From Echinarachnius parma (taxonomy: Eukaryota; Echinodermata; Echinoidea; Clypeasteroida; Echinarachniidae): DNA of 64,000 nt. This document shows positions 4,500 through 35,343 of this stretch, in pieces. Positions within the stretch are counted from its first letter, which is position 1. Every line of letters begins with the position of its first letter. The notes beneath the pieces are model-generated. The model was not told the origin of the DNA. It ran no database searches and saw nothing but the letters and a program-made list of their open reading frames with translations. Position numbers and translations under genes: made by a program. Where the stretch lies: the NCBI GenBank assembly GCA_037951105.1, contig JBAMJV010008219.1:49842-113841 (forward strand), given 5' to 3'.

Positions 4500-5110
4500 T
4501 CATAAATTAACAAAGTAGTTTATATTTGACTAGGTTTATTTTACGTCTAAGTACTCCATATCGCCTCAAATTTAACCAAAATCACTTGGAGCGTTCACAC
4601 TTCTCTTGGCTGGGTTTTGGTTCAGTCAGTTTTTAGTCAGTTCGCTGGGTGTAGGTTCAGTCAGTTTTTAGTCAGTTGGCTGGGTATAGGTTTAGTCAGT
4701 TTTTAGTAAGTTGGCTGGGTATAGGTTTAGTCAGTTTTTTTCAGTTGGCTGGGGATAGGTTATAAGTCAGTTATATGGGCGATTGCGTATACGAATTCGG
4801 ATAATATTGACTACGGTAGAAAGCATCCATTCAAGCGTTCGAAGTAAATCTCAATAATCAGGAAGACATTGAAAGAAAAGAAAAAAACTGACTAAACCTA
4901 TCCCCAGCCAACTGACAAAAAACTGACTAAACCTATACCCAGCCAACTGACTAAAAACTGACTAAACCTAAACCCAGCCAACTGACTTCATTCTTTTGTT
5001 ACCATAACCCAAACAACAAGGTACAAGAGAAGTGTGAACGCTCCAAGTGATTTTGGTAACATTTCAGGCGGTATGGAGTACTTATAAACTACTTTGTTGT
5101 TTATGAATTG
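4500..5110. mobile_element. Fold-back palindrome with tandem repeats in the loop arms
   Basis: The left arm (about 4500-4607) and right arm (about 5023-5110) are imperfect reverse complements, sharing ATCACTTGGAGCGTTCACAC on the left. Between them, a unit of about 38 bp (GGCTGGGTATAGGTTTAGTC plus TTTTTAGTCAGTT) repeats about four times at 4607-4770. It recurs in inverted orientation about three times at 4886-4988. The middle (4790-4870) is T3-family interior sequence. The structure would fold into a long hairpin and looks like a fold-back derivative of a T3 copy. Confidence 0.65.
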
Positions 5111-5115
5111 ATTGC

Positions 5116-5676
5116 TTAAAGGGATAATTGAGTTTTGGTAGAGAGAGTACAGTTTTAGTCAAACTTAATTTTAGTAACCAAAACCTGCACCATTACATTA
5201 CAAACTAATAATTATAACTCCACCATGCTCAAAAGGAATACCAAAACTACAAACGACTAAGTAAAAAGCCTGTTATCATTTTTAAAAAGAGCTGTTTAAA
5301 CTAAGGAGGGCGCTTTCAAAAAACGCATTTGTTTAAACCATTTTAAATAAAATATTGTGCATGTGATGTTTTGTTGAAATAGTGATTAGATAGAGAGATA
5401 ATCAACAACTAACTAAAAACCTCTTTTGAAAATTTTGGAAGGAAGCATTTTAAAACGAATTTTAACGGCTGGTTCAAAATTATCGAATACTTGTGGGGCC
5501 CCACATTTATTACAAATGGTTATGTTTATGGATATTTCAGCCGTTTCTGAACCGATTTTGATCAAATAAAGTTTATTCTGCCATTAAAATTGTACGCTCT
5601 TTCAAATTTGACACGCAGTTTTTCATTATCTCACAAACAAATTATTTTGTGAAGCGCCCTCTCTACCAAAACTCAA
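5116..5676. mobile_element. T2-family TTAA element, 5' part (split by retrotransposon)
   Basis: It begins TTAA-AGGGATAATTGAGTTTTG at 5116. Its far end reads CTCTACCAAAACTCAA at 5661-5676, the complement of its start, but stops abruptly at the retrotransposon tail. The missing terminus TATCCCTTTAAG lies at 13143. It is related to copies at 39986-40520 and 46072-46580 (shared GGTAGAGA, GCGCCCTC and AATCGAC segments). No transposase ORF is visible. Confidence 0.8.
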
Positions 5677-5699
5677 CAATGTTCAATGTTCAATGTTCA
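5677..5699 (-). repeat. Retrotransposon 3' tail, (AACATTG)3
   Basis: On the plus strand the 7-bp unit CAATGTT is repeated three times at the junction with T2 DNA. In sense orientation the element ends in AACATTG repeats instead of poly(A). Short tandem 3' tails of this type are typical of CR1- and L2-group LINEs and serve as the reverse-transcription start. Confidence 0.75.
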
Positions 5700-6537
5700 A
5701 TTTTATTTCATTTTCAACATGAAGGTACATATATTTACAATGAATAATTCACAACAACATTTGTGAAAGTATAAACAATAAATTATAAACATTGGCAATC
5801 AAAATGTATGTTGATATAATAATTGATTAAAATATAATGAATTAAGATACTACGAAATTTTTATATTTTTAAACAAGGTACAATTCAATTTTGACATTTA
5901 GAAATAATCATATTATAAAAGCGGAAACAGAAAGTAAACGAATGTTGCTGTATGTTTAAATTTCAAGTGAAAATGGAGGGATCCACTAAAAAGCATGGCT
6001 TGTAGAATGTGGAATCCCTCAAAAATTAATGTTTTACAAAGTAATGAAAGTATCAAATACGGAAAAAAATACGAAAAATCAAATACGGAAAAATTGTGAA
6101 TAATAGAAAAAAAAACAAAAAAACAAACAAGATAGCAAATATTATACAGTGTAGTATTACAAAAAAATGTAATTATTACAAAACTGTTTGATAAGAATTC
6201 AAAATAGTGTTGTGCCTACGGAGACTACTGAAGAGAACATGAATGTATGAACAAATAAGACGCAGTGTGGAAGCATACATGAACAAGAAGATGCTGTACA
6301 AAAGATAATGAAAATATAGAAAATATGAATGGATTGAGAAGGTATGGAATGAGAAGGTATGGACCTGCAAGACTAAAAGAAAATGTATAAAATAAAATAA
6401 AAACAAAAATTTCATACAAATTAAGAGAATAAGAAATATTATTTCATTAAAATAGCGGCGCAATTTCCAGAATAAGCAACAATAATAATAATGAAAGGTT
6501 TTTTACGATGACCCTTTTTCATTACCAAACAATTAAG
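5700..6537 (-). other. Retrotransposon 3' UTR
   Basis: 838 nt follow the ORF2 stop. It is AT-rich and contains only low-complexity frames (for example 6176-6463 on the minus strand, Phe/Leu/Ile-rich), which I take as spurious. No second domain such as RNase H or esterase is seen. Confidence 0.65.
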
Positions 6538-9500
6538 TTAACTAGTACCATAACGTTGTAATAAATATAATTTAAGTTTTCTTTTGAAAGAATTAAGTGA
6601 AGGTACATTTTTCATACCTATATCAAGAGTGTTCCAAAATTTAGGACCATCATAAATAAACGTATTCTGAGCTAATAAAGTTCTTAAAAGGGGTAAATGA
6701 AATTCATTTGACTGTCTAGTTGGGTAATTATGAACCGATTGATTTTTAAAAAACATAAAATCAAAAGCTGAAGGTAATGAATTATTATCATATTTATACA
6801 TAAATTGACCTAATTGGTATAAGTACAAGTCATTAATTTTTAATAATTTATTATTAAAAAATAAAGGGTCTGTATGGGAGCGTGCAGTGGAATCACAAAT
6901 AATACGAATAATCCTTTTTTGTAACAATAATAGCCTATCTAAAAACAATTGATGCGTGTTCCCCCAAGCAAGAAGGCCATAGTTTAAGTACGGCAATATT
7001 AAAGATGAGTATAACATAAACAAAGAATTCATTGGGAGACAAGTTTTTAACCGTTTTATAACTCCAATATTACGCGAAATAGTTTTACAAATGCTATCAA
7101 TGTGACATTTCCATGAAAGTTTATTATCAACAATTACTCCCAAAAATTTAATAGAAGGCACATTTTCCAATACATTATTATCAAAAACAATATTTGAGGG
7201 CAAAGAATCTATTGATTTACTAAAAAGCATAAATTTAGTTTTCTGAAAATTTAAAGATAATTTATTAGCTCTTATCCACTGGGAAATCTTAAATAACTCA
7301 ATATTAATCGTTTCTACTAGAATATGTGGATTTCTGTGAGAAAAAAATAAATTAGTGTCATCAGCAAATAGTATGAATGACAATATATCGGAAGATTTAC
7401 AAAAATCATTTATATAAATAATAAATAAAAGTGGACCCAATAAGCTTCCTTGGGGAACGCCGCAAGTGACATAACGAAATTCGGAATTAACATCATTTAA
7501 AGAAACATACTGCTTTCTATTAGAAAGATAGCTCCGGAACCACTCCAAGGCCTTCCCACGTATACCATAATGAGAAAGTTTATAGAGTAAAATATTGTGG
7601 TTAATCGTGTCGAAGGCCTTGGAGAAGTCAAGGAAAATTCCTACTGTGTGTAATGATTTATCAATAGCATGTGCCACCTTATCTACAAAAGACAATAAAG
7701 CATGAATTGTGCTATGTTTTTCCCTGAATCCAAATTGAAAGTTAGAAAAAATATCATTATTCTTAAAGAAAGAAATAGTACGAGTATATATAATTTTTTC
7801 TAAAACTTTAGAAAGTGTGGACAACAAAGAAATTGGACGATAATTACTAACATCTAGTTTGTCACCTTTCTTAAAGAGGGGGACGACCTTAGCAATTTTC
7901 ATTATATCCGGGACTTGACCATTTAATAAAGATAAATTAAAAATATGAACGAGAGGATCAACTATAGAAACAATAATACCTTTTAATAAAAAGTTATTTA
8001 CACCATCGTAGCCTGAACTTTTCTTATTATCTAAATTAGAGACTATATCCAAAATCTCATTTTTATGAATAGGTACAAAAAAAATCGAATCAGGATTGGG
8101 AGTACTTAAAAAATCAACAAAATGTTTATCTGAAGCAGGAATATTTTGAGCAAGATTTTCTCCAATTGAAGAAAAGTATATATTAAAAATATTACTTATA
8201 TTACCAGGATCATCAACCATCACATTATCCTGTCGAATTCTAGTTATATTTGATTTATTTTTATTTAAATTCATTGCTTGTTTAATAATCTTCCAAGTTG
8301 TTTGCATGTCATTTTTAGATAATTCTAATCGATTAACAAAATACCTTCTTTTTTCCAAACGTATGAGTTTAATAAGTATATTTTTATAAGAAGTATATTT
8401 TAATTTAAGTTTATCAGTACCTTTTAGTTTATATTTATAATACAAGTTATTTTTTCTATTTATCGATCGTAATAAAGATTTAGAGATCCATGGGAGTCTT
8501 GGAGACGTTTTATAATTACAAGATTTATCTCTTTGTTGTGGGATATCAATATCTAATTGACAATTAAAAATATTTAAAAATATATCGTAAGATGAATTTA
8601 CATCATCATTATCGTACACAGCAGACCAATCAGTATTATCCAGACTAGCGCCAAGACGTGCTACATTATCATGCGTTACTTTACGAATTAAACGGGGAGG
8701 GCCACCAATTTTTACCACTGGAGCTACATTATATTGGGTTAAAATGGGATAATGGTCAGTAATATCAGAAAGAACAATATAAGAATTCGGGTGAGGTATA
8801 ACATTACTAAAAATATTATCAATAAGGGTGGCAGAAGAATCTGCAACACGAGTGGGTTTAGAAACAAGAGGGAGAAAAGAGGCCGACAAGAATATTTCAA
8901 GAAATTCATGTGACACATTATTATCAGCATGTTTCAATAAATTTATATTATAATCTCCCATTAAAAAGCAATCTTTATTCTCAAAAAGGGGGTTCTTAAT
9001 TAAGTCAGTTACATAAATTAAAAAATCTTTTAAACTAGAATTTGGAGGTCGATAAATAACACCAACTAATATATTTTTATGACCCGGTATTATAATTTCA
9101 ATGAATAGGGACTCTATTAAATCGTTAATTAATGAAATATTTTCATGAACTACATAATTATACCGTTTTAATACATACATAGCTACACCACCTCCTAATC
9201 GATCTTGTCTATTTTTATAAACAAACTCATAATCATTAAGGGCATGTGATGAATCTACATCTTGAGTTAACCAAGTTTCAGTCAAACCAATTATAGAGAG
9301 GGGTGTTTGAGAGGGGACATCTAACAATAATTGCAAATCATCAAAATGTTTATTTAAGCTTCTAATATTCAAATGTAATAGCGAAAAAATATCATTACTA
9401 TAATCTTTGACCACATCATGAAACTGTTTGTTTGTTATATAACTAGTGAGAGCTTCTGCTGCTGGGTCATCAAAATGAAAATCGAGGTTTAATTCCTCTG

Positions 9501-9651
9501 ATAAAGCATTAAAAGTATCACCCACAGAAGCATCATATTGTCCCACTGGATCATTATTAATATCAATATTTCCTAAAGCAGGTCTTAATAAATCAAAAAG
9601 GTCATCGTTATTTAATGAATTGAATGGAACGTGGTTATTTAAGTTAGCCAT
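6538..9651 (-). CDS. ORF2: endonuclease and reverse transcriptase of non-LTR retrotransposon
   Basis: A 1,037-residue replication protein that nicks target DNA and reverse-transcribes element RNA at the nick. An endonuclease/exonuclease/phosphatase domain spans about 88-305: HLNIRSLN (93-100), TETW with Glu125, GDYNINLL (232-239) and SDITDHYPI (295-303). The reverse transcriptase spans about 525-800: YRPISLLS (604), FLDFSKAFD with Asp675 (673-681), GVPQGSLLGPLLF (731-743) and FADDTNLFF with Asp764/Asp765 (762-770). A thumb and C-terminal region follows, with SWKCH near 846. All expected catalytic residues are present and there are no stops or frameshifts. No RNase H is visible. The ATG overlaps the stop of a 134-codon frame upstream (ATGGCTAA), which could matter for reinitiation. 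The family is sure; the clade (CR1/L2/Daphne/Jockey group) is inferred from motif style. Confidence 0.95.
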   Translation of the reverse strand: MANLNNHVPFNSLNNDDLFDLLRPALGNIDINNDPVGQYDASVGDTFNALSEELNLDFHFDDPAAEALTSYITNKQFHDVVKDYSNDIFSLLHLNIRSLNKHFDDLQLLLDVPSQTPLSIIGLTETWLTQDVDSSHALNDYEFVYKNRQDRLGGGVAMYVLKRYNYVVHENISLINDLIESLFIEIIIPGHKNILVGVIYRPPNSSLKDFLIYVTDLIKNPLFENKDCFLMGDYNINLLKHADNNVSHEFLEIFLSASFLPLVSKPTRVADSSATLIDNIFSNVIPHPNSYIVLSDITDHYPILTQYNVAPVVKIGGPPRLIRKVTHDNVARLGASLDNTDWSAVYDNDDVNSSYDIFLNIFNCQLDIDIPQQRDKSCNYKTSPRLPWISKSLLRSINRKNNLYYKYKLKGTDKLKLKYTSYKNILIKLIRLEKRRYFVNRLELSKNDMQTTWKIIKQAMNLNKNKSNITRIRQDNVMVDDPGNISNIFNIYFSSIGENLAQNIPASDKHFVDFLSTPNPDSIFFVPIHKNEILDIVSNLDNKKSSGYDGVNNFLLKGIIVSIVDPLVHIFNLSLLNGQVPDIMKIAKVVPLFKKGDKLDVSNYRPISLLSTLSKVLEKIIYTRTISFFKNNDIFSNFQFGFREKHSTIHALLSFVDKVAHAIDKSLHTVGIFLDFSKAFDTINHNILLYKLSHYGIRGKALEWFRSYLSNRKQYVSLNDVNSEFRYVTCGVPQGSLLGPLLFIIYINDFCKSSDILSFILFADDTNLFFSHRNPHILVETINIELFKISQWIRANKLSLNFQKTKFMLFSKSIDSLPSNIVFDNNVLENVPSIKFLGVIVDNKLSWKCHIDSICKTISRNIGVIKRLKTCLPMNSLFMLYSSLILPYLNYGLLAWGNTHQLFLDRLLLLQKRIIRIICDSTARSHTDPLFFNNKLLKINDLYLYQLGQFMYKYDNNSLPSAFDFMFFKNQSVHNYPTRQSNEFHLPLLRTLLAQNTFIYDGPKFWNTLDIGMKNVPSLNSFKRKLKLYLLQRYGTS

Positions 9652-10170
9652 TTAATAACAAAAACCATATCCCAAACAGGATGAACGTAAGTACAAAAGT
9701 TTCTAAATAATAATAGAGTGTACATTTTTGCGCTTTTGCATGACAAAAAGATCCGGTCCAAATCGGAGAAGACAGTGAGGAATGCATAGAATGGTCAGTA
9801 GAGTACAACAGTAAAAACAAGGTGATGGAAATACCTACATGTGGACAGAATTGAAGGAATACACATGAACAATTACACGAAAAGAACACGGGAGAGGTCT
9901 CCGTAGGCAACACAGACAAAGTCAGTTGGGCAGTCGGACTACGAGAACGCAACATTACTGGATGAGTCAAACGAGATCCCTGCATATAACAATTATAAAC
10001 AAATAAATCTCTGGTAAGAAATAGTGGGATATAGTAAGGCTGAAACAAGAAAAGTGAATAACAAGTGAAAATAAGAATTAAAAAGAATTAAAAAGACATG
10101 AGCGACAGAGCTATACTATAAAGAAACATGGCGAATAGCAAAGATACAAATATATAATTATAGAAGTACA

Positions 10171-10690
10171 TGATATATAGATAGAACGCGGTGACAACCC
10201 AGGACTGAATCATATTGAACTTGAATAAGGCAATTTGAAAACCGTATAAATAAATGTTAGCGAAAAACTGTCGAATAACTGTCGAATTGGGTCAGTGCAC
10301 CCGGGTCGCACCGTGTCTACCTGTACATGTGGAGGATAATCTGTACAATTAATGGAGGAAACAGATAAGGGGGAATACGGATCTGTATAAAATAGTTATT
10401 TAGCTGTATAACTTGAGAAATACCAATTTAAATAGAACATACACGATAAATAAGTAGGACGCGGTGAACGGCCCGGGATCGAATCATTGGGTAGTATTTA
10501 AACATGAATAATATAAAGAAAATCCTATACACAATGTCAGCGAACAGAGAATTTGTAGAATTGAGTCAATGATTCCCAGTCGTACCGTGGTCTACTTGTA
10601 CAAAAGAGGATAACACAAGGGTAAAAGCGGATCAGGATTAAGGGGCCTATACAAAAGGGTTATTTAGCTGCATAACATGGAAAATACTGA
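10171..10690 (-). repeat. Diverged tandem duplication in inter-ORF spacer
   Basis: Copy 1 (about 10171-10428) and copy 2 (about 10440-10690) share ordered blocks: ACGCGGTGA, GAATCAT, GTCAGCGAA or GTTAGCGAA, GAATTG(G)GTCA, CGCACCGTG or CGTACCGTG, CTACxTGTAC, AGGATAA and GTTATTTAGCTG. The offset is about 273 bp. Divergence is high, around a third of sites by eye, so the duplication is old or under weak constraint. Confidence 0.7.
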
Positions 10691-11455
10691 ACGGTTACAA
10701 ATAGAGCGCTTAAACAAATGTAGCACGTGTGAATTCAACCAGAAAAAGTAAACAAACATATACGCATATAATATAAACACGTGTATAAAAGAGAAGTTGG
10801 TTGATGGTAGAAAGAAAATCAAACAGACGAAAAGGAAGCATAAATCAAGCATTTAGATGTTTGCATACACGTATGTGAATATAACACAGTTGAGGTAAAT
10901 AAGGTAAATTTGTGGCATAAAAGCAATCATGCATAATGTGCTGAACAAATTGTAAATTGTCGAAGGTGAAAATGGTGATTGCAGACAATTGAACAACAAA
11001 TAAGTTAAAATGTGAGGCAGTAATAGGTTTGCCATATAAAGTCATCACATAATACAAGATTAATAATAGAAGCCTACATTATATTGAATCAGGAAGTTAT
11101 AACAGTAGAACAGAGCATCGATAATCGTGCAGACAATTATAGAGATCAATGCAAAAAGAGTATGAGCGAATTCACCAAAAAAGAAAAGAAAAAAAAGAAG
11201 AAAAAAAAAGAGCATGCACTATAAAAACACAAATATAAAAGAAACACGAAATTCAAGAACAAGTTTATAAAGGGTATAGTCAGTAGCAAAAGAAGCAATA
11301 CAAAATAAACCAAGCAGAACAAGAATAAAAGCACAAAAGGAGAGATAGACAGGATATGAAAATGAATATAATAAGTGGAACATAAACATCAGTCAGGTTG
11401 CCATAGGTCCTTTTTCTAAAATAATAAAATGACATATGAAAAGCAATAGTTAGCA

Positions 11456-11607
11456 TTTTTTTTTTTTTTTTACATAGTTTCTTATAATGTTCACCTAATG
11501 GTGAAAACTGCTGTTTTCCTACAGTTAAGGAACAAAAGCTATAGAAAATTGTATAATTTTTTTTTTTTTTTTTACCAAGTTACTTATAATGTTCACCTTT
11601 CGGTGAA
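11456..11607 (-). repeat. Paired hairpin plus oligo(A) units
   Basis: Two similar units occur about 102 bp apart. Each has a run of 16-17 T on the plus strand (11456-11471 and 11557-11573), then CTTATAATG and a short hairpin, TTCACCTAATGGTGAA (11490-11505) or TTCACCTTTCGGTGAA (11592-11607). The loop changed while the stem stayed the same. In sense RNA each hairpin precedes an oligo(A) stretch, like the end of a polyadenylated or terminated transcript. Confidence 0.7.
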
Positions 11608-11918
11608 ACTTTGCATTTATTGTACAATTATAGAACACAAAATGCAAAGAAGAGACAAAAAATAGTTTTAGACATAAACAGCATATCAAATGTTTGATAA
11701 AAACAAAATAACGTGAGGCATATTAAGTATAACATTGTAATCATATTTGTGATGTTTATCCTCAAATAAGCTTTTGCTGTAATTTAAAATTGAATTTTGT
11801 CTCAAATTATCAACGACTTATAAAACGTACAGAAAAAAAAAAAAAAAAAATCTCTCATGAAGAAAATAAAGGTACAGGAGAAATATTGTTCTATTGTTCT
11901 TTTTAGAGTATTGTCATT

Positions 11919-13037
11919 TTAGTGAGAAAAGAAGGTAATGACATGAAATGTCAAGGTATGAATAGTTACTCTTTCCAATTGGTCCAGCTTGTCGGGGGTG
12001 CACCATTCTGCAGATGTTTTCTCGTCTGAAGGTACCTTGGTGCCACTAATGCGAATTCTGGTGGCAAACTGTTTTTGTCGAAGCTTGTATGCCAGCTCAG
12101 CCAGTCGGCCTCGTTCGCGCTTCATGCTGACTGGAAGATCACTCCGTATGGTTACGCGTGTGAAGCTCTGGACAGGTGCTGTTGCTGCAACACTGCTGTA
12201 CGTAAGTTGTGGCTCACCTTGTTGTCTAGGCAGTTGAGCAGGTTGCGGGGGCTCTGCTCGATCGGCATCTCTGGTGCGGGTCGTCTGTTGACCGGTGGTT
12301 GCGGAAGATGCAGTAGGGTTGCGGCGAGGCTGCTCGAAGGCTCGGAGCAGGTTGTCACGATCAGCCATGTTGGCGAATCGAACGATGATCGCTCGAGGAC
12401 GAGCTCCATCTGGTTGATTTCCGGCCTGGGGGGCTGGGAGGCGGTGTGTGTTGACGATGGATACGTTGTTAGCAAACTCGCGGCTGAGGAAGTGGGCCAT
12501 GACGTCCTTTGCGGTTTCATAAACATTCTCGTTTTTTCTCTCGGAAACACCATATATAAGCAGGTTTTGCTTGCGTTGGTGAAGTTCAAGGAGGATCAGT
12601 TTGTCTTCTAATTCATCATTTTTCTTGGTGAACTGATCGTGCAATTTTGGAATAACTTCTTTCTCCAGTCCTTTTAGTTTATTATCATTAAATTCCACAC
12701 TCCTCTCCAAATCAATCACTGCATTTTTGGTAATGTTCAACTCACGTTTGATCGCGTTGATATCAGCAATTACAACGTCGAATTTAGAGTTCATTTGCAC
12801 AGATAGATCATTGAACATAGTCCGCATTTCGGTAAGAATGGTGGCGTGTTGTATCGGGCTTTGTTGATCGGCGGGCAGCAGGGTCACGTGATCCCCGTTC
12901 CCGGGGTTTATGACCGGCTGCGATGCTAGGTTGGGCGTGTTAGACATTTTGCTGGTTATTCTGCTGGTTTTTTTGCTGGTAATCTCACTTGGTTTGCAAC
13001 TTGATCTGGCTCTCAGGTTATAGGGAGCTTTGCTCAT
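11919..13037 (-). CDS. ORF1: coiled-coil RNA-binding protein of non-LTR retrotransposon
   Basis: 372 residues. A basic Ser/Thr-rich N-terminus (1-35) is followed by a predicted coiled coil at about 65-155 with regular hydrophobic heptads. An RRM-like domain at about 156-240 includes RKQNLLIYGVSE (155-166), NTHRL (196-200) and RAIIVRFANMADRDNLL (215-231). A Gln/Pro/Thr-rich linker covers about 241-285. A C-terminal domain at 291-352 includes FTRVTIRSDLPVSMKRER and LAYKLR. This is the order of L1 ORF1p-like (type II) proteins, which trimerise, coat element RNA and act as chaperones in the RNP. The long linker between RRM and CTD is unusual. The start codon is the first ATG after a leader of about 105 nt. 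Pairing with a CR1/L2-style ORF2 is noteworthy, since many CR1 elements carry an esterase-type ORF1. Confidence 0.9.
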   Translation of the reverse strand: MSKAPYNLRARSSCKPSEITSKKTSRITSKMSNTPNLASQPVINPGNGDHVTLLPADQQSPIQHATILTEMRTMFNDLSVQMNSKFDVVIADINAIKRELNITKNAVIDLERSVEFNDNKLKGLEKEVIPKLHDQFTKKNDELEDKLILLELHQRKQNLLIYGVSERKNENVYETAKDVMAHFLSREFANNVSIVNTHRLPAPQAGNQPDGARPRAIIVRFANMADRDNLLRAFEQPRRNPTASSATTGQQTTRTRDADRAEPPQPAQLPRQQGEPQLTYSSVAATAPVQSFTRVTIRSDLPVSMKRERGRLAELAYKLRQKQFATRIRISGTKVPSDEKTSAEWCTPDKLDQLERVTIHTLTFHVITFFSH

Positions 13038-13142
13038 GTCTTAATGATTGCAGTGTAAAAACAGAGATTTACGGCACATTATATGTTGAAGCAGGAGCTC
13101 TCGCGAGACACGTCCGATCCCTAAGGCTGCATAGTATCGATC
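13038..13142 (-). promoter_or_regulatory. Retrotransposon 5' leader and presumed internal promoter
   Basis: 105 nt from the mapped 5' end to the ORF1 ATG; in sense it begins GATCGATACTATGCAGCC. A full-length LINE must carry its promoter at or downstream of its own start, so this leader is the likely place. No canonical core element is identified with confidence. Confidence 0.45.
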
Positions 13143-13153
13143 TATCCCTTTAA
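13143..13153. mobile_element. T2-family terminus, 3' remainder
   Basis: TATCCCTTTAA is the complement of the T2 start at 5116 (TTAAAGGGATA). It is the displaced end of the T2 copy interrupted at 5676. With one base missing, the two parts rejoin to a complete TTAA-flanked terminus. Confidence 0.8.
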
Positions 13154-15699
13154 GTCATTTACCATTTAACAAATCATGGCATTTGAATTAATGTAAGCGG
13201 ATCTGTAACGTTTATAGTGTATGTTTTTTGTTTGTACAAGTGCTTATTTGAAACTTAAAACACAAATGCTGAAATTCACAAAGGGGGTTTCCAAAAAATA
13301 GCCCACGGTCGTTCATCTCTTATTTTCGAGAAGAAAAAAACGAATTCTATGAATAACAATTTATTAAATATTTTAATTTTAAGACACATTTTGTTTTGTT
13401 TTGATGCTTCTAACGGCTGCATTAGTTTCCTTATTTTGGTAGTGAGAGATGAACGAGCGACACTTCATAAAACCAGGTGCATTGTAAACCGTAGTTTACG
13501 TATAGACCATCTTTGTAAATGCAAGGAATTTTGCTTGACATAATGCAAAAGGGGTTGTTGTGAAGGGCACAGTTACGTCCGTATTAAAACTGCGTATTAC
13601 AAATCTTCAATTTAATACTTACATTTTTGAGGCGTGATTTTGTTTGTTGTTGCAATTTTAGTGCAGCAAAATATATTACTTTGACATTTATAGTACGAAA
13701 CGTACAAACTAGTATTGCGTGTATGCATGTCACTGGAGCAGTGGTTTACACATTTGTTCGGCCTTTGTTTGGCAAAGGGGTGCATTATTTCGAAAAATGG
13801 GCCATTTTGTTTTTTGTTTTTTCTATATTTGCGGTTTTTTTAGGTCAAAATGGTTGGGTTTTAGTTTTCGAGATATCAGGGGCCCTCGGCACCCAATCAT
13901 ATAATTTGATTGGTAATTTGTATGGCAAAAAGATGTATCTATAGATACACAGTTGTTCGCGCTGGATCAGTTGAGTACAGTAACTGCGCCTCAGTCACAA
14001 TGGTATATGGTCAGAAATCGACCAATGCCGTTCCTTTGTGTTAATATACGCGCTCTAAACTAGTTCATGAAGCATTACCATAATATAGGTTAGATCTATT
14101 CATTTGTTAAGGATAAAGGTAAATACTGCATGATAATGGTTTACGTAGTGTATACACTTAATCGATTATTGTATCGCTCCAAATTTGGACTAGTTTGCTA
14201 TTAAGAATGTTAACAATTTTGTTTAAACGATTTTAATATTGGTAATACATTTTTTATTTAAAATATTACTACTTCTGCTACGAAGACATGCACAGTTTGT
14301 TATAATAAGAATTAGTATAGTTTCAAGCAAAACTTGTATTTGTTCAAACCCCTGCCATATATACAGATAGCGACAGATTTCCACCCACCATCCTTCTCTC
14401 CCCATCACTCATTTCATAATCAACCAACTCACGCACTTCCTCAAGAAAACCCGATATGGAAGGATTCCGCTAACGTCTAATGGAATCCGACGACGCGACG
14501 GTAGTTGACATCATAATGATATCGATAGGGCCTCCGCACATAAGTAGCCCAAATGAGGAATTGATTTTCTCACCCCGGATGCCGTCCCCCATCCCGCCGG
14601 AAACTGGACCAAGGGAGCAAGGCATGAAGAGAACATCTTGCGATCCGGGGCGGTAGCTAGGGTGTTTACGTACGGAGGGGAGGGGGGGGGGAGATGGGGT
14701 TAAAGGGGGGGGGGGGAGGTGATGGATTCAACTACGGGAGCAACATCAGCTATTTGCGTACAAGGTGGAGGCCTAGGGTGCTGGCCTCCCGAAATTTCTT
14801 AAAACACCAATATTCGCGAAAAAATTGTAAATTTTGGTGCAAAATAAGTGCAGGTTTTAATTTTTTTTTGTGAAAAAAACACCTCATATTTGGGGAAATA
14901 CATTTTGGTCTCATTTTTCGGGCAAAATACAGTAATTTGTGTTGGAGAGGTGGCTAGGGTAAACTCAACCTGGAGGGGGGGGGGGGGGGGGGGCGCAAAC
15001 AGATGGGGGATGAAAAAAGTGGGGATGAAAAAAAAAATCACTTTTTATCTTTGGAGTAAATAAACGTCGTATCTGGCCGAAATCAACTCATATTCTGCAT
15101 TAGTTATGTTTCGGGCATACTCATAGCATTTTTAAAGGACTATTCTGGCAAACGTATTAATACTTCGCCAGTGAGCCCATCTGATCCCAAACGTAAGCGC
15201 ATCGTTATATTATATAGTTTCTTTCTTTTCTTTTCTTTTTTGTTTGGGGGGGGGGGGGGGGGGACAAAAATGGGCCACAAGGAGGGGAGACATTGTATAA
15301 AGGGAGCCAAGTTAAACCCCCTTGCATCACGATTTCTACGCCACTGATATTAGGCAAAAAGTCTTGCGATCGTATTCCTGGCTACTTTACCTTCCACCGG
15401 AGTCTATGATAACAACCTGTCAATGTACGCCGTATAAGACTTCATAAGGGGTAAATGCACTTACCGCCCATTTGGGGCTTGCAGCCCAGGGAGCGTTTGG
15501 AAGCGCGTATCATTTGCATTGTGACCGACTCGTTTTTGATTCCCAGCCCCGCTGGACTTTGATGGCGATGTATAATACGAAAGTTTTTTTTTTTATATTT
15601 GTGTGTTTTATTATAATACGAAAGTTTCCCTCCCTTCATGTATATATTTATTTAACGTCTCTCATAATTTAATTTCTTTACAAAGCGTAGTACCTTTGC
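13154..15699. other. No gene recognised; G-tracts
   Basis: Short frames only (105 codons at 13627-13944 is the longest), without motifs. Purine/G-rich low complexity lies at 14675-14720. Pure G runs lie at 14975-14993 (19) and 15246-15263 (18). The segment 15290-15350 (CTACGCCACTGATATTAGG) resembles edges of CAG...CTG elements elsewhere, but no partner terminus is seen. Confidence 0.45.
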
Positions 15700-24408: not shown

Positions 24409-24797
24409 TTAAAGGGATCTAGTAACTTTGTTGACATGTGCAAAAAGTGATGAGTGGTTGATAGATACAATGTATATTGTTGTCATCTGATATGTCCACT
24501 GGATGTTGGGTACAAATTTCAAGTTAAATGGTCGTTATATGGCCGAGTAGTGAGCAAAAATGCAAAGTGATATTCACTAACTCATTGCAATCACTTTGTA
24601 CATGGTTTGGACGATCCAGTGGACAATTCAACATAATGAACACTTCAATCGTAAATATCTTTTTAACGGAAGGGAAAAAAAAAAACGAAACCTGCCCCAT
24701 GCTGTTATTTTTAATACGAATACAGCATGGTATGAGGGAACCGCTAGAATTCCAATTGGATTTTGAGGATTTGGACAATGTTACTAAGTCCCTTTAA
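24409..24797 (+). mobile_element. T1-family TTAA element, copy a
   Basis: TTAA-AGGGATCTAGTAACTTTG at the left and ACTAAGTCCCT-TTAA at the right. The interior contains GACATGTGCAAAAAGTGATG, ATATGGCCGAGTA, GCAAAGTGATATTCACTAAC and GAACCGCTAGAATTCC. At 389 bp it serves as the reference copy. It has no coding capacity. TTAA flanks with AGGGA ends match the TTAAAGGRR signature of Kolobok/T2-type MITEs. Confidence 0.88.
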
Positions 24798-25315
24798 GCA
24801 GTGCGCACAAAGTAGCCTATACTAGTTCAAAATGGCAATCCGCGGTGTAGCATCCACAGAGTAACTATATCATCCTCACGCCTGACATTCTTTAATCATC
24901 GCGTTTCAGATCATAGCCGCTTATAAATACAGTCTTGATATAATCTTCTCAAATAAAAGAGGACATCAATGTACTAGAGGCCAAAGTCCACTCCGTGGAT
25001 GTCGTGAAGGAACCCTTTACAGGGTGGCCCAAACAAAACGGAACGGGATACTTGCCATAATGAAGAAACATGATAACTAGGTTCACGGGATAGGGCATCT
25101 GTTACGAATAAAAAATTATACCAAGAACAGTAATTTTGGTCGAGTAGTTTTTGTTTTAGGACGTCTTAAGTGAGACTATGTCAGGTTCCCATTTGTGTAA
25201 ATTTTTACAGGGTCAGTGCCTGATAAATCGCACTTACTGCCCGTCATAGCATCGAGTAACGATCAATGCGGGCACTATTGTTAGTGCGCATCCAGATGTG
25301 TAGAGAGAAGATAAC

Positions 25316-25668
25316 TTAAAGGGAGCCAGTAACTTTGTTGACATGTGCAAAAAGTGATGAATGGTTGATGCAACGTATATTGTTGTTATCTCATATGTCC
25401 ACAGGGTTTTGTGTGAAAATTTCAAGTCAAATGGACATTGTATGGCCAAGTAATGAGCGAAAATGCAAAGTGATATTCAGTAACTCACTGCACTCACTTT
25501 GTACACGGAGGAAAAACTCGCCCGGAGTTTTTCTTATCTGAATACTTCAATCATACATATCTTTGTAACGAAAGGGAAATTAGAAAAAAAATTGAAAAAG
25601 GTATAAGGGAACCGCTAGAATTAAAATTTTATTTTGAGGATTTGGACAATGTTACTAAGTCCCTTTAA
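25316..25668 (+). mobile_element. T1-family TTAA element, copy b
   Basis: TTAA-AGGGAGCCAGTAACTTTG ... AAGTCCCT-TTAA. It shares the T1 interior, but the central spacer is replaced by a strong hairpin GAAAAACTCGCC/GGAGTTTTTC near 25512-25535. The inverted copy at 35601-35986 carries the same hairpin, so the two form a sublineage. Confidence 0.88.
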
Positions 25669-25772
25669 GTATTGCGGTCATATACCACACATATCATGAA
25701 TAATGTACAGTGACAGATTAAACTTCGTATAAAGTTGCAAAATAAAGTATTCCAACCGTATAGGCAACAGTG

Positions 25773-26008
25773 TACAGTGTACCCAATAATTATTTGGACA
25801 CATTGAAAAAATCACTTTAATTTAAATGATGCTAGAACAAATTTTGAAGAAAATGTTTGGTAAAAAGCTGCCTAAAATTCATTGTATGTGTTTATTAAAT
25901 GCTGCTTTGTTGAAATCAAGATAAAATATAAGACCATTTTTGAAAAATTATCAAAATAGTTAGTTTCCTATTTTTCAGGGTGTCCAAATAATTGTTGGTT
26001 ACACTGTA
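25773..26008. mobile_element. Tc1/mariner-like MITE
   Basis: Between TA dinucleotides, CAGTGTACCCAATAATTATT at 25775 pairs with the complement of AATAATTGTTGGTTACACTG ending at 26006; TTTGGACA follows inside each arm. CAGTG ends with a CAATAATTATTTGGACA core are characteristic of Tc1/mariner termini. At 236 bp with no transposase it is non-autonomous. Confidence 0.82.
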
Positions 26009-26672
26009 TGTGTGAACCATCCGTATAGGAGAAGTAATTGGAATATAACAATCGGTTTGTAACGATAATATAGTCAATTTGTAGTTTCTTAAATTCACCT
26101 GGACCAGAACGTAACTTCCGCTTTAAAGCAGGACCATAAATTACTAAGTAACATTTCATTTATAATAATATGACGATGATATTATACACTGGGCGAACAT
26201 GAACAGTTCAGGAAAGTACATTCGCGTTGGTAAATCCGAACAACTAAAGAGTATATAGTCGGACAAATTAATTCCGTATCGTACATGCGTTTTCTTGTAC
26301 TTTTCTTCCAGTGGATTCCGAATTTGGAACAAGGATCTTAATCGTTGGGGACAGCTGTAATGACAAATGATGGAACACTTTGGTAATAATCCATCCGGAC
26401 TCATTACTCGACGACTGTGTTTCGAGTCTATATAAAAGGCTCTCTACCACGAGCAATATTGGTCATACAACCAACAGAAAGGGCATTTAGAATACAGCGA
26501 CCGTCTTTAGAAATAATTTGCACGAATATTTTAAAGGTCAGAGTTTATTGAACACTTTAAACAACAAACATTCATTGAAAATATAAAGATATAGTTATAA
26601 TCGAAAGTTGTTGGAACCAATGAAAACTTAAAGCCTTATGAAAGCAATTCCAATAAAAAAAAGTCTCCTTTA

Positions 26673-26690
26673 CCCCCCCCCCCCCCCCCC
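26673..26690. repeat. C18 homopolymer
   Basis: Eighteen consecutive C on the plus strand. Confidence 0.9.
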
Positions 26691-26939
26691 TTTAGCTCAA
26701 GAAAGAAAAAAACAGCCCCACCAAAGTACTGATCACACCGTCACACACCTAAACCGTCACACACATACCTCAGACACCCATTCCAGTATATCTGCTCCTT
26801 TTTGTTATTTCAACCTGAAGAATAATTAATTGACAATATAGAAAGCTGTCGCATTCAACTAAAGAGAGGAGAAACCCAAAACCTTAATACTAATTAGCGA
26901 GTTCTCTATAATTTCCACAAAATACAATTAATCATATTA

Positions 26940-27545
26940 CATGTATTTTATGGTGTTCCCATTTTCGCAAGTGAACCCCTACTTTACCCTTTTTAATAGC
27001 AACTTTTTGTTCTTCTTCTTCATAATCCAAAGTAATTGTTTGTATTTTTCGTACAGAAGGAAGAACACTTTTTTATTCTAGAAGAATAAATAGTATGCTT
27101 TAACAACAAAATAATAGAATTACAATATTTTACTCTATATGATCTACCTGCCAATCCTACAAACATTATTTTCCAATCAACATTCCTAATTTCAATCAAA
27201 TCAAAATATTCAATTATATCTAGCCAAAACCTTTGTACGTATAAACATTAAAAAAATAAATGTGAATATGTCTCAACCTTATTTTTTACAAAAAGAGCAT
27301 AAATTATCACTAACAAATCCAAACCTAAATAAATGTTCTTTTGTATATAAAGCCCTATGCAATAATTTATATTGAAATTCTCTCAATTTACCCCCCAAAA
27401 CTGTACTCTTGAATCTAAAACATATATTCTTCAATTCTTCATTACTATAATCAAAATTGTTATGTCCATCCCCAATACACAAATTATATTCCTTTTGAAG
27501 GCTTTTAACTAAATATTCATAATGCCTAGATTTTAAATCTACACA
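26940..27545 (-). pseudogene. Decayed LINE ORF2 C-terminal fragment (L1/Tx1-like)
   Basis: The upstream part (about 27545-27279, minus strand) reads through LREFQYKLLHRALYTKEHLF and ends SDNLCSFCKK, the Cys-containing segment near the C-terminus of L1/Tx1-group ORF2 proteins. Downstream, after stops and frameshifts, the frame resumes near 27060-26950 with LPSVRKIQTITLDYEEEEQK and GKVGVHLRKWE, again typical of that terminus. The EN and RT domains are absent, so this is a 5'-truncated dead copy. It abuts a CA/CG/C23 low-complexity array on its 5' side. Confidence 0.7.
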
Positions 27546-27607
27546 CACATACACACACGCGCGCGCGCGCACCCCCCCCCCCCCCCCCCCCCCCACACAC
27601 ACACACA
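27540..27607. repeat. Compound (CA)n(CG)n C23 (CA)n array
   Basis: ACACAC, then GCGCGC, then 23 C (27572-27594), then CACACA. Three simple-repeat types follow each other directly. Confidence 0.9.
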
Positions 27608-27697
27608 TGCCTGGATAATTATTCAGTGGAAAGCTGGTATTGCGAAACCTGTCAAATATTTATATACAACCTTTTATATAAGTACGTGCATGATTAT

Positions 27698-28108
27698 TGT
27701 GAAAGCGATCCATTAATTAATATTTTTCCCAAAATTGATATTTGAGACTTTAATCATATACCAATATCATTGGATGGTTCTTGCGAATGATATCTGAGAT
27801 TTTCATAGAAAAGGAGTAATGTTTACCTAGTAGAAAAAAAAATCGAAAATCGATGGCTGATTTTATCCCGATCGTTAAATTCGGATACTATGGAATATTA
27901 AGTGTACGAATTCGAATACTCGTTACTACGGTCAAAAACGTGTAAAGACGCTTTAAAATCCAATCTTAAATATCTTCATAATTAGGGACACATTTGAAAA
28001 ATCAGAACCCATTTCATTATTATGTTACCATAAGCCGAACTACAAAGTACAAGACAAGTGTGTAAATAATTTTGGTTGAATTTTTACAAAGTTAATGGAT
28101 CACTTTAA
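27698..28108 (-). mobile_element. T3-family element, near complete
   Basis: The left end is GAAAGCGATCCATTAATT (one or two changes from AAAGTGATCCATTAACTT). The right end is AGTTAATGGATCACT-TTAA at 28108. Interior blocks match 48677-49077 in reverse orientation: CTTTAATCATATACC, ATGATATCTGAGATTTTCAT, TTTTATCCCGATCG, GAATTCGAATACT and CAAGACAAGTGTG. It is non-coding. Confidence 0.8.
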
Positions 28109-28597
28109 GAAACGATATTAACAGTATTTGTTCAATTTGTTTAAGTCATACAACTATTTTTTTCTTTTTCGAATGCTAGATGGATGCATTTATAAGTTCT
28201 CTCAGATTTGACAAAGCTCACTTACAAGTCTATATATATGCAGTGTTCATGCATGCCCCGTTACTTTCCTCTTACTTATCATGCTTATACTATAAGTCAT
28301 ATAAGTATGAAACGAGTTTATGTTGTTAAATTAGCGCTTTGTTATTGAGATATATTAATTTAACCTGAGAAAGAAAAAAATGAGAACTATTTCTACCATG
28401 TATATGCAAACCTGTAGGCTACGTCAGTGGGTTGGCGAATGGCACTTTGCATTTTCCCTCATTTCTCGTACCATGAGTGAAACCTTCCAACATCGCTCAG
28501 TGCACATTATTACCAGATGACAGAACATACGCATAATTATACGCCCTGTGTTTGTGTTCGGTACCATTCAGCTACTATAACCCTTCAAGGTTGCTAT

Positions 28598-28962
28598 TTA
28601 AAGGGATCTAGTAACTTTGTTGACATGTGCACAAAGTGATGAGTGGTTGATACAATGTATACTGGTGTTATCTGATATGTCCACTGGGTGTTGTGTGAAC
28701 ATTTCAAGTTAAATGGATGTTATATGGCCGAGCAAAATGCAAAGTGATATTCACTAAACTCATTGCACTCATTTTGTACCCAGTTTTCGCGGTCCAGTGG
28801 ATAATTTAACATCTGAAAACCTCAATCGTAAATATCTTTTTAAAGGAAGGGAAATGTAAAAAAGCGAAACCTCTCCCATGCATTTATTGTTAATACGAAT
28901 ACAAGGTATGAGAGAACCGCTAGAATTCCAATTGGATCTTGAGGATTTGGACAATCCTTTAA
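28598..28962 (+). mobile_element. T1-family TTAA element, copy c
   Basis: TTAA-AGGGATCTAGTAACTTTG at the left. The right end is shortened to GGACAATCCTTTAA, lacking the GTTACTAAGT segment. The copy at 60340-60712 has the same shortened end, so both may come from one truncated master. Confidence 0.85.
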
Positions 28963-29223
28963 ACAAAAAATACTTTAATATCCAGTTGTCATCATCGGGC
29001 ACCTTGGTGACAAAGCTATTATAATATCATAATCTACGGTCTCCCTTCCGTTGATGGCTGAGGGATCGAGCAATGTTCATTTACCTAAAAGCAAACTAAA
29101 TCATTTGCATCTTCCGTGTCAGCTTGAGTTTTCCAACACTGATAAGCTTGAAAGGTTTGAGGCAAGTCGAATGTCGAAAAAATATATTTCCAAGCAAATG
29201 TGCCGTCCACATATATAGGTTAA

Positions 29224-29375
29224 CAGTGGCGTAGCGTGGCTGGACTGATTGGGGGGGGGGGGACGCAAATTATTTGGGGGCACACCTTATGTATTTCTTT
29301 GTTTTTTCAAAAAATCTCCCCTTATGTTTTCTATTGTACATTTTTTTTCCAAATTATTGGGGGGCTACGCCACTG
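29224..29375. mobile_element. hAT-like MITE with G12 tract
   Basis: CAGTGGCGTAGCG at 29224 and GGCTACGCCACTG ending at 29375 form terminal repeats. GGTTAA flanks both sides (29218-29223 and 29376-29381), a 6-bp duplication. The interior has a G12 run and T-rich sequence. CAG...CTG ends with a 6-bp duplication fit the hAT6 type. The length is 152 bp with no transposase. Confidence 0.75.
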
Positions 29376-29499
29376 GGTTAACTATTGGAGGAGCTGTCAC
29401 CTTGAAATGTTTGAAACAGATGAATGGCGCCATACAAGTGCTGTGAATCATTACTTAGTTATGACACCTATCGATTTCCTTTAACGTCAAATGTGACTC

Positions 29500-29660
29500 G
29501 GCTTCGTATAAAACCAGACGCGCGGTGCCATCTTGCGAACGTCTCGCGCACAGAGCGTACAAGCCATCCAAGTCATCTGCTTCATTACAAACAAACTCAG
29601 CTTTATCGATTTCCTCGTTAAAGGTGACTCGCTTGCGTAAACCAGACGCGCTTTTTGGAG
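29500..29660. repeat. Short direct duplication
   Basis: GTGACTCGGCTTCGTATAAA ... CCAGACGCG at about 29490-29522 recurs as GTGACTCGCTTGCGTAAACC AGACGCG at about 29621-29650. Confidence 0.5.
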
Positions 29661-29668
29661 ACCGGAAA

Positions 29669-29938
29669 GGTAAACTTCTCTACGTCATCAGAATTGCATT
29701 GTAGATTAATTTGGGAACTACATGAACCAATCACAGAGCAGTTCACAGTGTTGTCACCAGATCGAGGTCAAGAGAACAAGTTCATATGCATAAGTTACCA
29801 TGGATCCCATTGTTCTCATAAGCGTGATCAAATCTAGGACAGTGCGCATGAAAATAAGCGCGATAGGCTACGCGCTACATATGATGATGATTGGTCAAGT
29901 CTTTCTAGGTCAACCGCGATGACGTAGAGAAGTTTACC
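29669..29938. repeat. Inverted repeat, GGTAAACTTCTCTACGTCAT arms
   Basis: The 21-bp arm at 29669-29689 is perfectly complementary to 29918-29938. It looks like a MITE, but the outer boundaries and duplication are not clear. The inner sequence is unremarkable. Confidence 0.65.
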
Positions 29939-30107
29939 AAAAACCGCGTCACTCCGCCATCTTGCCCATGTACAAAGTCTATGTGACACGTGACTTGCAC
30001 GCGATAAGTGGGCCTTCGTTTATTCATAATTCTATGGTTCTGGTTTTGGTGTTTTGCTAAGCGCACAAACTAGCCAGTTTGAACCTGTTCGGACCTGGCA
30101 TCTGTAT

Positions 30108-30478
30108 GAGATCTAGTAACATTGTCCTCAAAACTTTATTAGCAATCTAATGGTTCTCTCATACCTTGTTGTATTTGTATTACCAACAGAAATGTGGAAC
30201 AGTTTTTGGTTTTTCGAATTGCCTTTTCGTTAGAAAGATAATTACGATTAAAGTGTTCAGATATTTACCTATCCACTGGATAGTCATATTATGTGTCAGT
30301 GCAATAACTTTTTATAGCACATATAACTTTGCATTTTTGCAAATTTGTCGGTCACATGACATTCGTTTACCATGGCATTTTCACACATTACTCAATGGAC
30401 ATATATCAAATAAATGCACATTTTATCAACCATTTCCCAGTTTTGGTACATGTTAACAAAGTTACTGGATCCTGTAAT
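30108..30478 (-). mobile_element. T1-family element, copy d, eroded ends
   Basis: AGATCTAGTAACATTGTCC at the left and GTTAACAAAGTTACTGGATC at the right, with the T1 interior in reverse orientation. The TTAA-AGGG termini are mutated. The central hairpin is CTATCCACTGGATAG. Confidence 0.78.
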
Positions 30479-31082
30479 TCATATGCATGCAGATGTGTGC
30501 TTTTTCTTCAAAATTTAATCTTAAATAGATTGCTTTTGACTTAGATACGAGCGAATATATTTTAAAAAGAGGAAACAAAATAAACCCTAGCAATAACAAA
30601 AACAGCACTAACAAAATTATAAACAAGATCAACATTAGTAGCGTTGAATTTACCTCACTTTTCCTGAATATCTATTCGCACATGATACACTTAATAAATG
30701 CACACACACGTTACCATAATAGTACAATATGTCACGTGTGACAGAATCATTACAGAATCTAGGATAAATGTTAATCAAGGAAAAAAATAAGAGGAAATAA
30801 TACGTTTTTGTCGTTCTAATCACTGATCATGCTGATTGTATGCGCCCCTTCGCATGTAAGTAATTAGAATCATGATCGCGGACAGGAAAATGTGGGTTTC
30901 CGTGCCGTATTAAGTGAAAACTCTTGCGAATGCATGTTCTGTATAGGCCCTAGGCGATTCGGGTATATTATGTACACTATGATGTTTACTTCAACATCAT
31001 CATTAACTATTTCAGCAATACGCTTCTAAACACCTGCCTAATTTTACTGTTCCTGATTTTAGGGGTAAATACCTTTTTTGTC

Positions 31083-31475
31083 TTAAAGGGATCTCGTAAA
31101 ATGTGTTGATATGTGCAAACAACTGACGAAGTTTTAATAAAATGTGTATTCCCGCAATCTGATATGTCTACTGAGTGATGTCTGAAAATTCCATGGTAAA
31201 TGAATCTCATATGACCGGGTAATGAGCGAAAATGCAAAGTGATATTTGCAAACTCATTGCCCCGACTCTGTACACAGTTGAAAGTCTCCACTGCAGACTT
31301 TCAAATCATATAACTTAAATCATACGTATCGTAATAACGAAGGACACGTTTATAAAAGAACATATAAACAAATTCCATGCTTCAATTGGTAATACGAAAA
31401 CAAGAAGGTGCATGAGAACCGCTATAGTTCTAAATAAGTTTGGTGGATTGGAACAATGTTACCAGATCCCTTTAA
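31083..31475 (+). mobile_element. T1-family TTAA element, copy e
   Basis: TTAA-AGGGATCTCGTAAAATGT ... TTACCAGATCCCT-TTAA. The central hairpin is GAAAGTCTCC/GCAGACTTTC (about 31280-31303), different from those of copies b, d and g. Confidence 0.85.
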
Positions 31476-31506
31476 ATGATAAGCATCCATCGCATACCGT
31501 ATAGCA

Positions 31507-31747
31507 TATGAAGAGCTTAATTCCAAAAGGCGCTAAATCCACTTTTTCAACTTTCCAGGAAAACAGGTTTCTTTGCCCAGCTTTGTACACATGCCTATGG
31601 AAATATATGAAAATGGAAAGCTCCATATTTGTTATTTTTATTGTGTAATTTGTCCTAAAAATTTGGATTTCTAGATAGCTACTCATATCGTTACCTCAAT
31701 TTGTATGGAAAGTGGATTTAGCGCCGTTTGGAACTAAGCTCTTCATA
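31507..31747. mobile_element. G-family MITE, copy 1
   Basis: TATGAAGAGCTTAATTCC at the left is mirrored by GGAACTAAGCTCTTCATA at the right, with GGCGCTAAATCCACTT and its complement next inside. TA lies at both ends. The length is 241 bp with no ORF. The other five copies are at 38161, 44195, 47946, 49262 and 55990. Confidence 0.82.
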
Positions 31748-32789
31748 ATAGAGGAAGGTGCAGGAAACTAAGCCACTTTGTAGGATGTCGATCAGTCGAT
31801 GTATTTATCCGAGGTCGACAAAAATATCCTTCTTGTCACAGGTGCTTGCAAATAAAACAACGAAGCATTAAATCCAACCATTAATCATAATAGTAAACAC
31901 GTGCACGTGTATAAATACGACCAATCATACAATCAATTAAAATGGCAGATTAAAGCTTACCGTTTTGTATTTTGGTTGAAGTTCGCATGCAATGACATAT
32001 ACCTAGTGTCACATTATGATATAATTATGTTAAAACTTCACCTGCCAAATTTCACTGTTCATTTTATGAATAGATACATATTTTTTTCTGATGTAATTAA
32101 CAAACATCGAACATAGCAATAAATTAAAATTATGCTACTTTATAAGATGTCGATGCATTAATTTTTGAAATTGGTTTACCTTTATTCCACTACAACGAGA
32201 GAGGAACGGTGGTTATTTTGTATTTGGATGAAGTTCGCATTCAATTGCATACATTGACATTCGAAAACAAAATGCCTTAAATGTTCACCTTGAGATATAT
32301 ATTAAATAGATAAAACTCTATATAACCATAGACGAACGGACAACCTTTTTTCTATGGGGCAGATCAATTTTGCACGAATGTCATCATTCCCGCATTCACC
32401 GTTATAACATTTCGAATTTGCCTCAAAATTGAAAGAGTTCTCTCCAAAATATTATTTTGAGCAAGAATTGGGTGATTTCGCCAAAATATGAGATATCTAT
32501 CGAATATCTACACGTTTACAGTATGTTTGCTTTTTGTTTAACTTATCGGGGTTGCAGTTATTTCGACCCCCTCCCCCTGCCACCCAACAATTTTCTTTGT
32601 AATTGAGTCACCAGCGATAAATTAAGTTAATGTTCGGATGTTTTGATAAATCTACTTTCCCCAAACCGTAAGCGCATTCATTGGAGCAAGTTAAGATCAC
32701 GGAGATGGCTCATTGTATCGCATTTTAATGGTGTTGACCTGGTGCGAATTATACACACCATAACGGGGACCTGGGGGTGTTTCACAAAT

Positions 32790-32835
32790 TCAATTCAATT
32801 CAATTCAAATTTTATTTAATTCAATTCAATTAAGA
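32790..32835. repeat. (ATTCA)n-type minisatellite
   Basis: AATTC/AATTCA units are repeated in two clusters around ATTTTATTT, inside the left arm of the surrounding element. Confidence 0.75.
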
Positions 32836-33110
32836 TCATGAAGTTGATCCTAAGTTGAACTTAACCCTAAGTTGGACCTAACATCTATGGAAAGCAGATT
32901 CTCTTTGTACATTTGTTAAAAAGAGTTCTTTAAACATGCCTGCAATGTCGATAAAACAAAACATTAAACGGTTCTTTTATCATGATAGAGGATTCAAGTT
33001 TTTGATGTAAAATTTTGTAAAAATTGTAAATATTCAAATGTTTTGTACTTGAATTTTTCTTATTCCGAAGCTACAAATGGCTTTCCATTATGTTTTAGTC
33101 CAACTTAGTG

Positions 33111-33540
33111 TTAAAGGGTACCACCACCCAAAAATAATATTCTTATAAATGAAAGGTAACATCTTTAGTATTCCATTCCATCAACAAAGTTCACAAAAAT
33201 ATGTTTCCAGAAAAAATATATATTATATAATTGGAAAACGCATCACCATTCTAAAGCGTGCGTTCATGGGTCTGCATGTACAAGACTACTTGTCCAGAGC
33301 GAACGAATCGCCCGGGATTCTATTGTCTCCAAACGTACGCGTGAAAAGCATTGGCGCACTCGCAAATGTTTGGCCCGTACGGAACCAGGAAATAGTAGTG
33401 GTTCCGTAAGTGGTGGAAATTAATTGCTGTGTTTATGAATTACACAACCCTTTGCAAAATGTTGGGTATCTATTTGATATCACAAAACGGTACCAAAACA
33501 TATAATTATGTGTTGTTCTTTGCCTGGTGGTCCCCTTTAA
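33111..33540. mobile_element. T4-family TTAA element, copy a
   Basis: TTAA-AGGGTACCACCACCC at 33111 and GGTGGTCCCCT-TTAA at 33540. It shares ATTCTTATAAATGAAAGGTA, GTCTGCATGTACAAGACTA and CAAACGTACGCGTGAA-like blocks with the inverted copy at 46733-47294. Similar 60-80 codon frames appear in both copies because the DNA is similar; they are not convincing genes. Confidence 0.82.
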
Positions 33541-33575
33541 GTTTGACTTGGGATCTTTGTGAAACACCCCCCTAT

Positions 33576-33897
33576 ATAGTCTAGTACGTAGGTGTGCATG
33601 CCTTCATGATTCATAACATTATAAACCCAGTCTTGACGCCTCTATGACTGTAATTTTGCGATTGACGCGGGTAATAAACTAACAGTCCTAATTGGGGGGG
33701 GGGGGGGGGGGGGGCGCAGTCGAAAGCCATGTTTTAATGGGGGTGTCTGCCCTGGTGCGGTTAAAGTAGACCAGTACGTATAAAGTGTGCATGTATTCAT
33801 GATCCATAATTATCATATACCCCGTCTTGACGCCTTCATGACTATAATTTTTGCGATTGACGCGGGTAATTAGCTAACATTCCTGATTAGGGGGACC
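33576..33897. repeat. Tandem duplication with G21 between copies
   Basis: Two copies share AGTACGTA, GTGTGCATG, TTCATGAT, CATAA, GTCTTGACGCCT, ATGACT, TTTTGCGATTGACGCGGGTA and AACTAACA or AGCTAACA blocks, at 33580-33693 and about 33770-33890. A 21-G run (33694-33714) separates them. Confidence 0.7.
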
Positions 33898-35304: not shown

Positions 35305-35343
35305 TTTCTTGAAGAAGAAGAAGAAGAAGACGAAGAAGAATAA
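35305..35343. repeat. (GAA)n microsatellite
   Basis: About twelve GAA units, with one GAC change. Confidence 0.85.

Follow-up and report, generated by a model that had tools for sequence, protein, structure and literature searches.

A 64,000-nucleotide stretch of the Echinarachnius parma genome (contig JBAMJV010008219.1, positions 49,842 to 113,841; hereafter referred to as the window) contains a short element, T2, with inverted ends and terminal TTAA, which breaks off near its right end and is completed only 7.47 kb further on. The intervening sequence is a long interspersed nuclear element (LINE), a retrotransposon of the non-long terminal repeat (non-LTR) kind. The locus raises the question of whether the split T2 fixes both ends of the LINE, and of what the insertion did to its target. 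We compared it with other copies in the host genome, which was searched as 1.2 Gb in 14,790 contigs. We consider it very probable that target-primed reverse transcription placed a CR1/L2-like LINE in the right terminal repeat of a short TTAA-type DNA element that was already there. The observations that carry this reading are the split itself, LINE ends that agree on both sides with those of other copies, the repeat tail, a target without a long duplication and the closeness of the LINE to other copies.

T2 and its interruption

The larger part of T2 (5116–5676, plus strand) begins with TTAA at 5116–5119 and breaks off at CTCAA. As a first-pass annotation of the window had proposed, the missing end, TATCCCTTTAA, stands at 13143–13153 on the same strand, an 11-bp remnant that includes the right-hand TTAA (13150–13153). 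The T2 ends are inverted, with 18 bp perfect up to the break; TATCCCTTTAA is the complement of the first 11 T2 bases and occurs exactly twice in the window, once per T2 end. With one mismatch allowed, the window contains 16 matches to it (2.35 expected), several of which fall where dispersed repeats end. TTAA is present at both ends of the window T2, of the copy at 39986–40520 and of the T2 in locus L029, and is lacking at one end of the copy at 46072–46580. Six T2 right ends were looked at for the proposed terminus: it recurs as CCCTTTAA in three (window 40520, window 46580 and L029), whereas L011 and L012, which share one flank and may be a single locus seen twice or a duplicate, read CCCTTAAAA, and L021 diverges after CTCAACTAT. 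No open reading frame (ORF) of at least 140 amino acids is listed in T2.

The LINE lies on the minus strand and fills 5677–13142 (7,466 bp) within T2, its full length being judged from full-length copies and from the ends of other copies. Twelve LINE loci were fetched as whole copies. The full-length relatives are L029 (99.3 and 99.6% identity, in two pieces), L030 (98.6%), L031 (98.5%) and L032 (97.4%); L035, which starts at base 107, is 98.3% identical, and the seven remaining copies are interrupted, incomplete or more diverged. Because the full-length copies are 97.4–99.6% identical to it, the window insertion is young.

The LINE arrived after T2 at this locus, as the first-pass annotation had dated it, but the order holds for the window copy and not for the families as a whole. 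In L033 (4454–4899), the start of a T2-family element coincides with a TTAA in the ORF2 of a LINE copy with 96–97% identity to the window LINE. This T2 is truncated further along, and the remainder of the LINE around it was not found in the fetched stretch; the reverse nesting is thus suggested by the sequence of one junction. Because nesting runs in both directions, the LINE and the TTAA family would have overlapped in time.

Ends of the LINE in other copies

If the break in T2 marks both ends of a full-length LINE, as had been claimed, other copies should begin and end at the same bases and continue past neither 13142 nor 5677. At the 5′ side, a query spanning window 12900–13400 gave 28 matches: the window, 17 other LINE 5′ regions (L002–L018) and 10 further rows, which are second pieces (L020 and L028) of two of these 17 loci or short flank matches (8 rows). 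Certain loci carry two labels (L002 and L029, L008 and L036, L018 and L037, and, at the 3′ side, L041 and C2870). By alignment, 16 of the 17 other copies start at LINE base 2–11, and L010 starts at base 107. The 300-bp flanks were compared in 10 copies, and the 5′ flanks of the others were viewed over 45 bases only. Among the 10, L038 and L039 have identical 5′ flanks, so these two probably represent one locus or a duplicate, and no other 5′ flank matches. Ahead of the normal start, L002 (just before base 454 of L029) and L018 (before base 513 of L037) carry additional, fragmentary tandem repeats of the first 20 or so LINE bases, as if the 5′ end of the RNA had been copied repeatedly. L038 and L039 also have a near-identical ORF2 and differ in the sequence after the LINE, which points either to an assembly artefact or to duplication of the locus with a break in it.

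At the 3′ side, the query (window 5600–6200) included the tail and 77 bases of T2; 40 of the 1,842 candidates were scored, the window among them. The match stops at query base 71–90 in 38 of the 39 other places, and in 23 of these 38 it stops at base 78, which corresponds to window position 5677 and is the point where the query passes into T2. The single exception, C2870, continues into a T2 of its own. The 3′ flanks were read at the 39 scored places (35 and C2870 as short stretches, three within longer loci), in six further copies and in the window, giving 46 ends, of which 44 are distinct (flanks are identical in L051/L052 and in L030/L057). In all 46, the match closes in a (TTGAACA)n tail. 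The tail comprises 1–7 full units, or one unit with one substitution, with three units in 27 of the 46, followed by 0–6 bases of a further unit; in the window it reads (TTGAACA)3 plus TTG (5677–5700, minus strand). Beyond the tail the sequence is locus-specific, apart from duplicated loci and repeats, and other copies extend past 5677 only by further tail units. The 3′ end is thus constant, as expected of a non-LTR retrotransposon, and on both sides the other copies agree with the ends read from T2. The ends found at the window locus can be used as family ends for annotation.

Target site and mode of insertion

The letters at the window site are CTCAA, the LINE and TATCCCTTTAA, and the plus-strand base of the LINE is C at both 5677 and 13142. 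In L029, a T2 whose right end is preserved reads CTCAACTATCCCTTTAA there. Because the C of CTCAACTATCCCTTTAA can be the C of either LINE end, target changes of −1, 0 and +1 base fit equally well. The earlier suggestion that one base was perhaps lost draws on the direct join of 5676 to 13143, which is one base shorter than the L029 T2 end; however, the LINE is bounded by C at both ends on the plus strand, so that no change or a one-base duplication gives the same letters. We regard such a deletion as a tentative sub-case of the insertion and not as an alternative to it. The LINE in L029 sits equally cleanly in another T2, between its bases 190 and 191, and there too one base is assignable to either side. 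For the two filled sites, the window and L029, sister T2 copies show the empty form, so that the target change can be bounded without an empty allele, here to at most one base.

No target duplication is present at the window site, in line with the earlier claim that a long one is lacking. Nor does one stand out in the 10 copies with compared flanks, in which the longest direct repeat between flanks is 3–7 bases (the mean for mismatched flank pairs is 4.4). Candidates of 7 bases in L035 and L040 could not be confirmed. The window locus is a clean example of LINE insertion without target duplication.

By the known LINE mechanism, the LINE endonuclease would have nicked the strand reading ...ACCAAAACTCAA(C). 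Reverse transcription of the LINE RNA, beginning at its (UUGAACA)n tail, would have used the 3′ end at the nick as its primer. Once the complementary DNA had reached the 5′ end of the RNA, it would have been linked to the opposite side of the break, altering the target by at most one base. The window insertion is ordinary and fits this mechanism.

Several points weigh against this account. The 3′ ends were retrieved with a tail-bearing query, by which copies with other tails would be missed. The breakpoints are ambiguous by one base both here and at L029. No empty allele was found, and no match covers the first ~190 bases of the right flank in a search that skips very common words. Moreover, ORF1 is frame-shifted near its end, which implies either a change after insertion or copying by another copy's proteins.

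The position within T2 might instead reflect a preference of the LINE family for a site in the terminal repeat of T2, and so not be accidental. This possibility was raised by C2870, where a LINE 3′ end joins a second T2, with different flanks, at the same T2 position to within about one base. Three of the 44 distinct 3′ junctions lie directly in T2 (window, C2870 and L029); among the 17 other 5′ ends, those of L029 and L036 are in T2 or no more than about 20 bases away. However, the window is the query itself and C2870 was favoured by the 77 T2 bases in the query; without these two, 1 of 42 distinct 3′ junctions lies in T2, against a T2 content of 2.1% in 10,251 flank bases from 41 other loci. 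L029 and, it seems, L036 entered other T2 positions. The C2870 LINE is interrupted twice and can be traced no further than its base 2298; past it, neither BLAST nor an exact-motif search found the other T2 end, although a diverged end of ~11 bases would be missed. A preference for T2 is thus unsupported once the query bias is counted; we judge it improbable and treat it as a lead only. If true, it would mean that the LINE endonuclease favours a sequence in the T2 terminal inverted repeat, making an abundant DNA-transposon family a semi-specific landing site for the LINE, with C2870 as the first sign. That mis-assembly or rearrangement placed T2 and the LINE side by side is very unlikely: the junction is a single assembled locus, seen in the assembly only, but the LINE has the ends of its family on both sides, and the remnant supplies the missing part of T2.

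Coding regions and known relatives

From its 5′ end, the LINE consists of a 105-bp leader starting GATCGATACTATGCAGCC (13038–13142, from the sequence and copy alignment), ORF1 (11919–13037), a spacer of about 2.3 kb (9652–11918), which is 98.4–99.8% identical in the five closest copies, and ORF2 (6538–9651), all on the minus strand. ORF2 matches Pfam RVT_1 (E = 2e-39) and Exo_endo_phos (E = 9.5e-8), and thereby combines a reverse transcriptase and an AP-type endonuclease in one ORF, as LINEs do; its best solved relative is LINE-1 ORF2p (E = 6.2e-18). It is open over 1,037 amino acids, a length shared by three of nine other aligned copies (L031, L038 and L039). The synonymous divergence (dS) between the window and L031 is 0.011, and the ratio of non-synonymous to synonymous divergence (dN/dS) is 0.18 between the window and the diverged copy L038.

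Both ORFs had been taken as intact, which is correct for ORF2 but not for ORF1. A short deletion near 12.03 kb is absent from all eight copies that cover the site (L034, deleted there, was left out of the count), and by alignment of the copies it shifts the frame of the final 37 residues, which replace a 22-residue ending common, with one substitution, to L029, L031, L032, L035, L038, L039 and L040; L030 has its own shift further up. Because of the deletion, ORF1 reads 372 amino acids, against 357 in L029 and L031. Before the deletion it is close to L031, with one synonymous and four non-synonymous differences in 328 codons. ORF1 matches the profile PF02994 at E = 0.0032 and 18.2 bits, under the curated cut-off of 22.4, and LINE-1 ORF1p by profile at E = 0.012. 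A single-sequence structural model (mean predicted local distance difference test score, pLDDT, of 46.7), with a predicted helix at 61–157, is too poor for its best fold match, to LINE-1 ORF1p (2ldy, E = 0.04), to be weighed.

A small ORF of 113 amino acids (9644–9985) precedes ORF2 and overlaps its start by 8 bases. It is open at 103–113 amino acids in 8 of 10 copies (113 in the window, L029, L030, L031 and L035; 103, with the same endpoint, in L038–L040), has 92 amino acids in L032 and is broken in L034. Its dN/dS between the window and L038 is 0.38 (72 codons), against 0.41 in the next frame; because that frame, which has stops, gives a similar value, no gene is demonstrated. The small ORF might couple the translation of ORF2 to its own. 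In the spacer, two T runs at 11450–11620 are each followed by a similar stretch (TTATAATGTTCACC...GGTGAAA), which looks like an old internal duplication. L038, L039 and L040 form a diverged subfamily, with a dS between the window and L038 of 0.19 in ORF2 and 0.54 in the in-frame part of ORF1, where the variable start aligns uncertainly; ORF2 modules have possibly been exchanged between subfamilies, which we note as a lead only.

Two other parts of the window were seen alongside T2. Directly before it, 4509–5098 contains 35-base tandem units and long inverted repeats, with arms of 108 bases (94% complementary) and 61 bases (93%), and resembles a foldback element. Several occurrences of GATCCCTTTAA in 24409–39939 fall at or near the ends of dispersed repeats, and perhaps belong to a second TTAA-type family. 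An Rfam search of the window gave no match.

T2 itself resembles short inverted-repeat elements with TTAA targets, such as piggyBac-like miniature inverted-repeat transposable elements, in its TTAA at both ends and its inverted ends. After TTAA, its ends start with AGGG, unlike piggyBac ends, which start with CC. We provisionally file the LINE as CR1/L2-like on the basis of its tail, its two-ORF layout and protein motifs. Short tandem repeats in place of poly(A) close all 46 of the 3′ ends, which were retrieved with a query that holds the tail. Before the 3′ repeat, the stem TCACAA/TTGTGA of a candidate hairpin is unchanged in all six aligned copies (three of one subfamily), and hence shows no covariation; the region folds no better than shuffled sequences (z = −0.96, 32 of 200 as good). 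The 2.3-kb spacer between the ORFs seems long for LINEs of the CR1/L2 lineage. The family was not met in the literature searched, and we make no claim that it is unpublished.

Like LINEs of the CR1 and L2 lineages (Jockey superfamily), the window LINE has two ORFs, with an endonuclease and a reverse transcriptase, and ends at its 3′ side in short tandem repeats. L1-like (type II, Transposase_22) ORF1s are reported in several L2 and CR1 subgroups in a passage of PMC4120745; the window ORF1 may be similar, as a long helix is predicted in it ahead of a stretch with faint resemblance to the RNA-binding domain of L1 ORF1p, but its matches are weak or under the curated cut-off. Short-repeat 3′ ends are described for L2 and CR1 elements in passages of PMC3747384 and PMC8665684: the eel element UnaL2 ends in TGTAA repeats (PMC3747384), and in avian CR1 the 3′ repeat is 8 bases long and accompanied by a hairpin (excerpts of PMC8665684 and PMC4316615). 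Unlike these examples, the repeat of the window LINE is the heptamer TTGAACA.

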